Source: Paludibacteraceae bacterium (GTDB taxonomy: Bacteria; Bacteroidota; Bacteroidia; Bacteroidales; Paludibacteraceae). Taken from it: a DNA stretch of 64,000 bases. The stretch covers positions 62,001 through 126,000 of the forward strand of contig JAQUTW010000001.1 in NCBI GenBank assembly GCA_028694215.1, in the 5' to 3' direction. Below the pieces are notes generated by a model that was not told the DNA's origin, made no database searches, and saw only the letters and a program-made list of their open reading frames with translations. Of the stretch, positions 6,256 through 7,815 are shown piece after piece (the first letter of the stretch is position 1; every line of letters begins with the position of its first letter). The translations under genes were made by a program, and so were the position numbers.

Positions 6256-6951
6256 CTATTTTACTGCCACTTTCATGGTTTGGTTGCCAACTTTTACGAT
6301 GTACAAACCTTGCGGAACACTTAATTCATAATTCGTAATTCGTAATTCGTAATTAATTAGCTGTCCGACAGAATTATACACATACACATCGGCATTGGCG
6401 TTATTTTCTATGACGATTTTGCCATCACGCACAAACACGCCTTCGATAACGGAAATATCCGATAAGGCATCTACTGTCTTTTTAAATGTAGCTGTATAGG
6501 TAACATTGGTAGTAACAGTAATGGTACGTTTTTTGATTTTATTGCCATCATTCCACTGTACAAATTCGTAACCACTGTTGGGAATGGCTTCTATAGTTGC
6601 CTGCGTAGCGTACGTATAGGTACCTGCACCGGTTACACTGCCCATTATAGAATCATTCACTTTAAGAGTAACCATATAACTGTCAATGGCAAATTCTGCC
6701 ACAAATGTAGAATCCTGCGTTACCATTACCGTACGCGGATTATCGGTATTATCATCATTCCACTTTACAAAATGATAATGCGGATTCGCTGTTGCCTGAA
6801 TTATTGCTTCTGAATTCGGACAGTACATACCACTGCCAATTACAGAACCCATAACAGACTGAGAAACCGATACTGTTACTTGAGGAGCCTCTATTGGCTT
6901 AATAACTTTTTTTACCGGACAGCAATAGTTTGGATTAAACCACTTATCACG
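6256..6951 (-). pseudogene. T9SS cargo fragment with InlB-type repeats, N-terminus lost
   Basis: The frame is open from 6951 (after a TGA at 6952-6954) to the stop at 6256. It encodes two divergent InlB B-repeats, recognisable from MGSVIGSGMY...HFVKWNDDNTDNPRTV and MGSVTGAGTY...EFVQWNDGNK. A type A T9SS sorting domain follows, with VYNSVGQLI and PQGLYIVKVG near the end. There is no signal peptide. The first internal ATG (6852) falls inside the first repeat, so a proper N-terminus is missing. A short ORF in another frame (6912-7028) overlaps the 5' end, which suggests a frameshifted or decayed surface-protein gene. T9SS cargo needs a signal peptide to be exported, so this product alone is probably not functional. 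Confidence 0.65.
6322..6358 (-). repeat. In-frame 7-bp tandem repeat (AATTCGT) inside the sorting domain
   Basis: About three to five copies of the heptamer AATTCGT, some imperfect, lie inside the coding frame of the T9SS fragment. They are translated as INYELRITNYEL, between the GQL and VPQGLYIV parts of the sorting domain. Because 21 bases give seven residues, the repeat stays in frame only in multiples of three units. Confidence 0.7.
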
Positions 6952-7028
6952 TCATGCGAAGTGAATGTTTTTTTCTGTTTCGAAACCAAATCCGCAATTT
7001 GTTTTGAAATTGTCTGAATATTACTCAT
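6912..7028 (-). CDS. Small ORF of 38 residues, possible lost N-terminus of the downstream fragment
   Basis: The ORF starts at an ATG at 7028 and encodes MSNIQTISKQIADLVSKQKK and a further 18 residues, ending at a TAA at 6912-6914. It overlaps the open InlB-repeat frame by 40 bases in a different reading frame. The peptide is basic and probably helical, and I do not recognise a family. It may be a separate small gene, or the original 5' end of the downstream gene separated by a frameshift in 6915-6951. Confidence 0.35.
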   Translation of the reverse strand: MSNIQTISKQIADLVSKQKKTFTSHDVISGLIQTIAVR

Positions 7029-7205
7029 AATCATAAAATTGAATTAATATCCCTACTCACTTTATGGCTTTTCGGTTACTCCGTTAGTTTTTTAATTTTG
7101 TAAATATAAGAGAAACAATTTATTAAAAATCAAATTGCTGCTATCCAATGTGGTTACACTTTTGTATCCAATTTGGATTATTTATCAGAAAAGTGCTAAA
7201 TTCTA

Positions 7206-7418
7206 TTATTTTTTAAAATAATCATCAAAAAAATTATAATCCAAAATTTGCGAGATGTGTTGCAGCAAGATGGTGTCGAGATTGGGTTTTCTGAATATTT
7301 TGTACATATTGTTGCGTGTACACGGAATCTGTCGGGCTAACCATGTTACACTGCGCCCCTGTTCGTACAGTTTTGCACGAATAAGTTTGCCAATATGTAC
7401 TTGAACCGGTACAAGCAT
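7206..7418 (-). CDS. Small HTH (XRE-like) protein
   Basis: The 70-residue protein starts at the ATG at 7418 (MLVPVQVHIGKLIRAKLYEQ). It has the helix-turn-helix core SVTWLARQIPCTRNNMYKIF, followed by LDTILLQHISQILDYNFFDD. Many Bacteroidota encode small proteins of this length and pattern that start with an HIGKLI-like segment. The frame also extends upstream to 7481, but that extension would run through the terminator hairpin of the structured RNA, so the later start is preferred. The ATG follows the T-tract of that terminator directly. There is no room for a separate promoter, so expression probably depends on read-through of the upstream RNA. Confidence 0.65.
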   Translation of the reverse strand: MLVPVQVHIGKLIRAKLYEQGRSVTWLARQIPCTRNNMYKIFRKPNLDTILLQHISQILDYNFFDDYFKK

Positions 7419-7455
7419 AAAAAAAGCGTAGAAACTGTTGTTACTCATTCTACGC
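7419..7455 (-). terminator. Intrinsic terminator of the structured RNA
   Basis: The minus strand reads GCGTAGAA, a 14-base loop and TTCTACGC, then seven T residues (7419-7425). The left arm overlaps the closing stem of the rod-like RNA (7452-7455), so the two pairings compete. The ATG of the HTH gene follows at once. Confidence 0.75.
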
Positions 7456-7690
7456 ATAAAGGTCTTCGCATTACCCATCAAGTATGAACGAGCAACGCAA
7501 GTGCCTACGCTGAATATTTCATGCCTAAAACCGACATGAAACCTTCATTGGCATTTACGTCACACTGTTTCTCTACTTGACTTGTTAAAACCTGCGAAGT
7601 TCTTATGCGTCAAAAAAAACAAAGCGCAATAAACGCTGTTATGTAAGTTGTTCTACTGTCGAAATTTACCGACGTAACTGTTTGAACAAC
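7419..7690 (-). ncRNA. Structured small RNA with rod-like 6S-type fold
   Basis: Between a perfect -7 motif and a terminator lies a region whose two sides pair in a nested series. The pairs are 7603-7610 with 7452-7459 (8 bp), 7593-7599 with 7464-7470 (7 bp), 7574-7581 with 7477-7484 (8 bp, one G-U), 7550-7560 with 7495-7505 (10 of 11 pairs) and 7535-7541 with 7517-7523 (7 bp). The largest internal loop, 13 and 10 bases, lies in the middle. A separate 5' hairpin pairs 7684-7690 with 7647-7653. A long irregular rod with a central bubble is the shape of 6S RNA, which binds RNA polymerase. The Bacteroidales-1 motif, regarded as a 6S homolog, is likewise flanked by a -7 motif and a terminator. The fold is seen directly; the family assignment is inference. 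Confidence 0.55.
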
Positions 7691-7694
7691 CGTG

Positions 7695-7702
7695 CAAAGA
7701 TA
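7695..7702 (-). promoter_or_regulatory. Promoter of the structured RNA
   Basis: The minus strand reads TATCTTTG, a perfect TAnnTTTG. Transcription would start near 7690, exactly at the base of the 5' hairpin. The HTH gene itself is more than 270 bases further on. Confidence 0.6.
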
Positions 7703-7815
7703 CTAAATTTAGTTAGAACAACGATAAATATTGTTATTTCAACAACAGATAAAATTGCATTGACAAAATCTACATTTATTTCCAAAATACCTTACAGGTC
7801 ATCATTGCTTTTTTG

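Follow-up and report, generated by a model that had tools for sequence, protein, structure and literature searches.

A multi-copy structured RNA ahead of diverse Bacteroidales genes is probably an attenuator-type mRNA leader

The structured RNA that we studied is probably the 5' leader of the mRNA for a small helix-turn-helix (HTH) protein, and one member of a widespread, undescribed family of attenuator-type leaders in the Bacteroidales. It lies on the minus strand of the window (the whole stretch of 64,000 nucleotides that was analyzed) and runs from 7702 to 7419, directly ahead of the ATG of the HTH gene (7418-7416). In our reading, it is a transcription attenuator or a riboswitch-like leader of a class that has not been described before. 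The original prediction was a 6S-type RNA or a relative, shaped as a rod and carrying its own promoter and terminator. Its description of the structure has held up, while the 6S identity is not supported. It did not include the strand, the end of the U-tract exactly at the HTH start codon, or another fold that has the same energy and excludes the first.

The minus strand of 7419-7702 has a minimum free energy of -87.9 kcal/mol, as compared to -65.0 +/- 4.5 kcal/mol for 200 dinucleotide shuffles (z = -5.08, with 0/200 as low); for the plus strand, z = -3.30. From 5' to 3', the element comprises a -7 box, a 5' hairpin, a small GCGT hairpin, the rod (7609-7453), a terminator hairpin, a run of seven U, and the ATG (7418). 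The Bacteroidetes -7 promoter box (TATCTTTG, 7702-7695) was assigned from its sequence and from the clustering of TAnnTTTG in homologs: this motif is found within 220 nt in 80 of 90 homologs, with a cluster at 60-119 nt before the first hairpin of the leader (35 hits in the 60-79 bin). The 5' hairpin that had been placed at the predicted transcript start is indeed there, just past the box (7647-7690, with arms at 7684-7690 and 7647-7653). It is followed by the P0 5' strand (ACATAACAGCGT, 7633-7644), which complements the end of the terminator along with the U-tract and the start codon, and by a small AGCGTTTATTGCGCT hairpin and a U-rich run (7623-7637), which our scan scored as terminator-like and whose GCGTTTAC..CGC is kept in homologs. 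We also note that 7612-7637, at strand Z (described below), resembles a terminator too: this second hairpin within the leader has a long U run, which is longer in the window copy than in most of its relatives.

The rod has the nested helices that were originally proposed. H1 pairs CGCATAA (7603-7609) with TTATGCG (7453-7459). H2 pairs 7593-7599, in the segment GAA-CTTCGCA (7593-7602), with TGCGAAG (7464-7470), and H3 pairs TCAAGTA (7574-7580) with 7478-7484. Above these are an upper arm and an apical hairpin (7520-7538) that is variable in the alignment. The terminator hairpin (GCGTAGAA...TTCTACGC, 7426-7455) has a perfect 8-bp stem (7448-7455 with 7426-7433; we call the right arm strand c), and its U-tract (7419-7425) is followed at once by the start codon. 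The closing stem of the rod does compete with the terminator, as had been suggested: the right arm of H1 and the left arm of the terminator share three nucleotides (7453-7455).

The evidence that the rod is real, and that it is conserved by compensatory change, is overwhelming. Across 30 diverse copies, 86.4% of the cells in the rod are paired, versus 73.0% after shuffling and 34-46% in slid controls. Covariation in these copies scores 0.461, versus 0.214 for shuffled alignments (0/500 as high). A search of homologs for compensatory changes had been proposed along with the 6S assignment, and such changes are plentiful: in 35 more divergent copies, 34 of 34 rod pairs are altered on both sides, with a score of 0.778 versus 0.214 (0/500), in an alignment that was fitted to the structure, which favors the rod score. 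At most positions of H1, all four Watson-Crick pairs are seen. H2 varies with compensation (the GAA-CTTCGCA segment is 100% paired), and both arms of H3 covary. The local terminator stem also shows compensatory changes (81.2% of cells paired in the 30 copies); it is the second-least paired helix in alignment A1 (81%) and the least paired in A6 (70%). In some copies, such as L127 and L135, this stem is missing, and only a helix between c and another strand, b, reaches the U-tract. We considered a protein-coding right arm, since copy L030 reads through as an ORF, and rejected it because the spacing of the conserved blocks varies by single bases.

The rod is not the only conserved fold. When we ran RNAalifold on the 30-copy alignment, it returned a different structure, in which strand b (CAGCGTAGG, 7504-7512; its other partner is the apical left arm) pairs with c, and strand X (GCGTTGCTCGTTC, 7486-7498), the most conserved segment of the element, pairs with strand W (AGAATGAGTAAC, 7440-7451), which overlaps the left arm and the loop of the terminator. 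Since it draws on the same bases, this fold cannot coexist with the upper rod or the local terminator. Its cells are 96.8% paired, versus 41-52% in slid controls; for strand b the figure is 96.1%, and 5 of 7 pairs have changes on both sides. A further strand, Y (7558-7573, the counterpart of GTCAAGAACAAAGCAAC), can pair with X, as in the rod, or with strand Z (GCGCTTTGTTTTTTTTGAC, 7609-7627), its putative partner in the read-through state. If each copy's own duplexes are compared to mispaired ones across 49 copies, then z is -10.0 for Z:Y, -4.9 for Y:X, -10.4 for X:W, and -5.3 for b:c (-9.6 in a set of 95 copies), and unrelated combinations of strands in the 49 copies stay within |z| 2; these values, like our other statistics for the family, ignore phylogeny. 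The more divergent "type-2" copies have a CTTATT-like core instead of GTTGCTCGTTC, and its pairing partners have changed together with it. One more pairing, between the 5' leader strand CCCACGCCGA and the right arm of the rod, was convincing by eye and was dropped because it was not significant (z = -1.4). In the window itself, the best rod fold (A) and the best fold with X:W (B) have the same energy, -85.4 kcal/mol each, and the computed ensemble favors the rod (0.96 vs. 0.02).

The conserved Z:Y, Y:X, and X:W pairings imply the 1:2, 2:3, 3:4 logic of an attenuator. In the leaders of the trp, his, and leu operons, too, successive strands pair as 1:2, 2:3, or 3:4 and so decide whether a terminator forms ahead of the gene. 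Unlike those leaders, this element has an additional knotted domain (H1-H3), and its client genes are not biosynthetic. We saw no conserved leader peptide in the element, and the length of the core varies by single bases among copies.

The position of the copies in their genomes is what one would expect of leaders. At the 120 loci that we listed, the next ORF runs in the same direction as the element in 102 of 108 cases (p = 1e-23); upstream genes have no preferred orientation (59 to 50). Start codons are mostly 0-90 nt past the U-tract. For the 40 copies that we fetched from six genomes, which include all of the strong hits, 39 have a same-strand ORF 3-177 nt downstream. In the HTH-type copies, 3-8 nt mostly separate the model hit from the ATG, which comes immediately after the U-tract; on plasmids of Phocaeicola dorei and Bacteroides finegoldii, the annotated genes begin about 70-86 nt after the hit. 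The downstream genes are diverse, with surface and secreted proteins among their products. They encode BspA-type leucine-rich repeat proteins and outer-membrane beta-barrels, LytTR regulators and NusG/UpxY-type proteins, a HaeIII-type restriction enzyme along with DNA methylases, and small HTH proteins, and we found no common pathway among them. By a crude test, 51 of 104 have a signal-peptide-like or membrane N-terminus, versus 177 of 522 neighbors. Because the next gene is codirectional and usually follows soon after the terminator, and because these genes are so varied, we think of the element as a leader that acts in cis. In the window, the element combines a codirectional 5' position with its own promoter box, a terminator (judged from sequence) ahead of the start codon, and conserved pairings that exclude each other.

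Some individual loci deserve mention. A copy in another genome (L006, G029:C38) lies directly upstream of a dndC-like PAPS-reductase gene, and three others (L177, L185, and L190) are ahead of DNA methylase or restriction genes, so defense genes are among the clients. At L104, L131, L026, and other loci, the first gene encodes a large unannotated protein; some of these proteins recur across genomes, and they may belong to an uncharacterized system.

The small HTH gene (7206-7418, 70 amino acids, beginning MLVPVQVHIGKLIRAKL) had been taken as a neighbor of the RNA. It does adjoin the element, as the gene downstream of the leader rather than as a mere neighbor. Small HTH genes are recurrent clients of the leader and are one kind among many: of 33 loci encoding this type of protein in the window's own genome and seven relatives, 19 have a match to our covariance model, nearly always immediately ahead of the HTH gene. 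By eye, we see diverged members of the family at further HTH loci (L253, L262, L266, and L269). A 69-residue fragment of the protein had no match in Pfam or the PDB, so the label "HTH" (or XRE-like) indicates a resemblance only.

How might the leader work? Transcription from the -7 box would produce the 5' hairpin, the rod, and then the terminator, right up to the start codon. With Y paired to X in the rod, W would be free, W and c would form the terminator hairpin, and transcription would stop ahead of the ATG. If instead Z pairs with Y and X with W, then the left arm of the terminator would be sequestered and polymerase would read into the gene. Once polymerase has read through, c would be captured by b of the rod; in most copies, it could instead be captured by a complementary loop just upstream of the start codon. 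The choice between folds would be set by a signal, which might be a small molecule, a protein, or the rate of transcription or translation. In short, the pairings themselves are shown by comparison, and we infer termination at the hairpin, an OFF role for the rod, and a signal that decides. The direction of the switch is the weakest step, because some copies do not have a good local terminator stem; in copies like L127 and L135, the b:c hairpin might be the terminator, with on and off reversed.

Two pairings reach past the terminator. First, most copies have a loop, located after the U-tract and before the start codon, whose sequence complements the right arm of the terminator (z = -10.5 in 95 copies; weaker in a second set, z = -2.9). 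The HTH-type copies, including the one in the window, do not have a clear downstream hairpin. Second, P0 is complementary to the U-tract region (z = -5.7 over 95 homologs), and in the window this duplex has an energy of -7.3 kcal/mol. Both of these pairings are possible only in the read-through RNA, which argues for control in cis. Together with the knotted core and the chain of competing strands, a post-terminator loop that locks read-through and one signal common to all copies would make this an abundant new class of riboswitch or attenuator. We hold this fuller version tentatively and would rate it at a little under an even chance.

A narrower idea, which we find possible and rather doubtful, is that the element is a true riboswitch, in which the knotted H1-H3 domain, along with a GAAA/UUUC mini-hairpin, would bind a small molecule and the chain of strands would be the expression platform. 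The large conserved domain could form a pseudoknot, it has invariant unpaired letters, and it comes with its own terminator; also, second-messenger riboswitches are likewise found in many copies ahead of unrelated genes. Like the riboswitches that control terminators, the element combines a conserved domain and an alternative terminator in a 5' leader with its own promoter. Unlike them, it belongs to no Rfam class, and its clients are diverse and often have surface, regulatory, or defense-type functions. Because these genes share no pathway, they do not suggest any candidate for the ligand, which counts against the idea.

It seems unlikely that the control is translational instead, with the hairpin that abuts the ATG blocking the ribosome and the alternative folds opening or closing the initiation region. 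The geometry would suit this: in HTH-type copies there is no gap between the U-tract and the ATG, a 5' CAU pairs with the AUG region in P0, and the loop that is complementary to the terminator arm is just before the start codon in most copies. On the other hand, nearly all copies keep a GC-rich stem with four to seven U directly after it, which is typical of a terminator. We prefer transcription attenuation.

The family is large. When we searched with the element itself, blastn found dispersed relatives in several genomes, and a pattern made from the most conserved block found at least 120 loci in a species-level genome collection, nearly all of them from Bacteroidales. For counts across genomes, we used a covariance model (R1). 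It has four good copies in the window's own genome and matches in 41 of 61 genomes of the same family, where a single genome may have as many as 21 copies; it also matches 56 of 247 genomes from the order, and 4 of 297 in a phylum-wide sample, one of the four being the window's own genome. The reach of the family beyond the Bacteroidales consists of three moderate R1 matches (L216-L218), two of them within the same class and the third in another part of the phylum, and these copies have the same architecture ahead of a gene. Copies in bins that are labelled as Pseudoflavonifractor, Firmicutes, and Lachnospiraceae (L036, L042, and L067) are Bacteroidales-like and are probably on mis-binned contigs. 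Matches at the DNA level occur on three plasmids from Bacteroides or Phocaeicola, and R1 confirms two of these (L237 and L238) as well as a predicted viral contig from IMG/VR (L227). The plasmid copies adjoin genes for hypothetical proteins. The family is common in the Bacteroidales and absent from Rfam; in a literature search that left most subscription journals uncovered, we found no earlier description of it, though one may exist under another name.

These copies are also why we do not believe in a free-standing RNA. A 6S RNA should be present in one or two copies per genome and should stand alone, and here there are four clear copies in the genome itself and up to 21 in relatives, with a codirectional ORF behind 102 of 108 copies, usually soon after the terminator. 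That the homologs are multi-copy and just upstream of codirectional genes implies an mRNA leader rather than an RNA that binds polymerase. The scan with Rfam covariance models that had been proposed as a check found neither 6S (RF00013) nor Bacteroidales-1 (RF01693) on either strand, and we rejected both identities on this basis: at E up to 10, cmscan of 7180-7760 with Rfam 15 gave no credible family of any kind, and no match within the element reached the gathering threshold. A weak match to Leu_leader at 7613-7751 (13 bits, E = 7.5) we dismissed as chance. When the homologous loci were scanned along with the window, again no Rfam 15 family was found at the position of the element. The sole Bacteroidales-1 match in the genome is on another contig (L001, G000:C32:3444-3623). 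Since this RNA, which is the proposed counterpart of 6S, scores 87.8 bits, the 6S role appears to be filled already. The element does resemble 6S and Bacteroidales-1 in its size, in its long rod with internal loops, and in having its own promoter and terminator. It differs from them in matching neither model, in being multi-copy and fused to the 5' ends of mRNAs, and in its alternative folds.

Could the element still be some other trans-acting small RNA, whether 6S-like or seed-based, whose real product ends at the terminator, with the gene behind it profiting from read-through? The promoter-like box and the terminator would yield a product of about 270 nt, and there are multi-copy families of small RNAs in Bacteroides, such as FopS (PMC11697453). 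We consider this quite improbable, given the tight codirectional linkage to start codons, the pairing partners beyond the terminator, the absence of any Rfam match to 6S, and the presence of Bacteroidales-1 elsewhere in the genome. Like our element, the FopS paralogs of the Bacteroidaceae are multi-copy RNAs with a terminator, but they are described as a single-stranded 5' seed stretch plus a terminator, and as acting in trans on susC-like mRNAs (PMC11697453); going by that description, they are unlike an element whose entire length is folded, with compensatory changes in its helices. Similarly, Flavo-1 is a widespread structured motif of unknown function in the Bacteroidota, and its hits are both sense and antisense to transcribed regions, without preference (PMC9723704), unlike this strongly codirectional family.

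We reject as very improbable a MITE-like mobile DNA that has imperfect terminal inverted repeats and carries a promoter, even though the P0 strands resemble such a repeat and the many dispersed copies include some on plasmids and phage-like contigs, because two copies from one genome are scarcely closer in sequence than two from different genomes (median identity of 0.59 vs. 0.55), the helices differ in sequence yet keep their pairing (G-U pairs included), and the promoter and 5' hairpin are outside the inverted repeat.

If the fuller version of our reading is correct, then one signal would coordinate genes as different as those for surface proteins, small HTH and LytTR regulators, capsule antiterminators, and restriction-modification. 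To our knowledge, few cis-regulatory RNAs are known from gut Bacteroidales beyond the classes that were first seen elsewhere. With their surface, regulatory, and defense-type clients, the leaders would be a global layer of regulation that annotation has missed, in most of the sampled genomes of one family and in many of the order. This raises a question that can be tested: is there a common signal that switches these leaders?

Finally, further along the minus strand of the window, 6256-7027 encodes an InlB-repeat protein with a T9SS-like C-terminus. This gene appears to be split: close to a run of A at about 6907-6915, the frame of the repeat part differs from that of a short ORF upstream.
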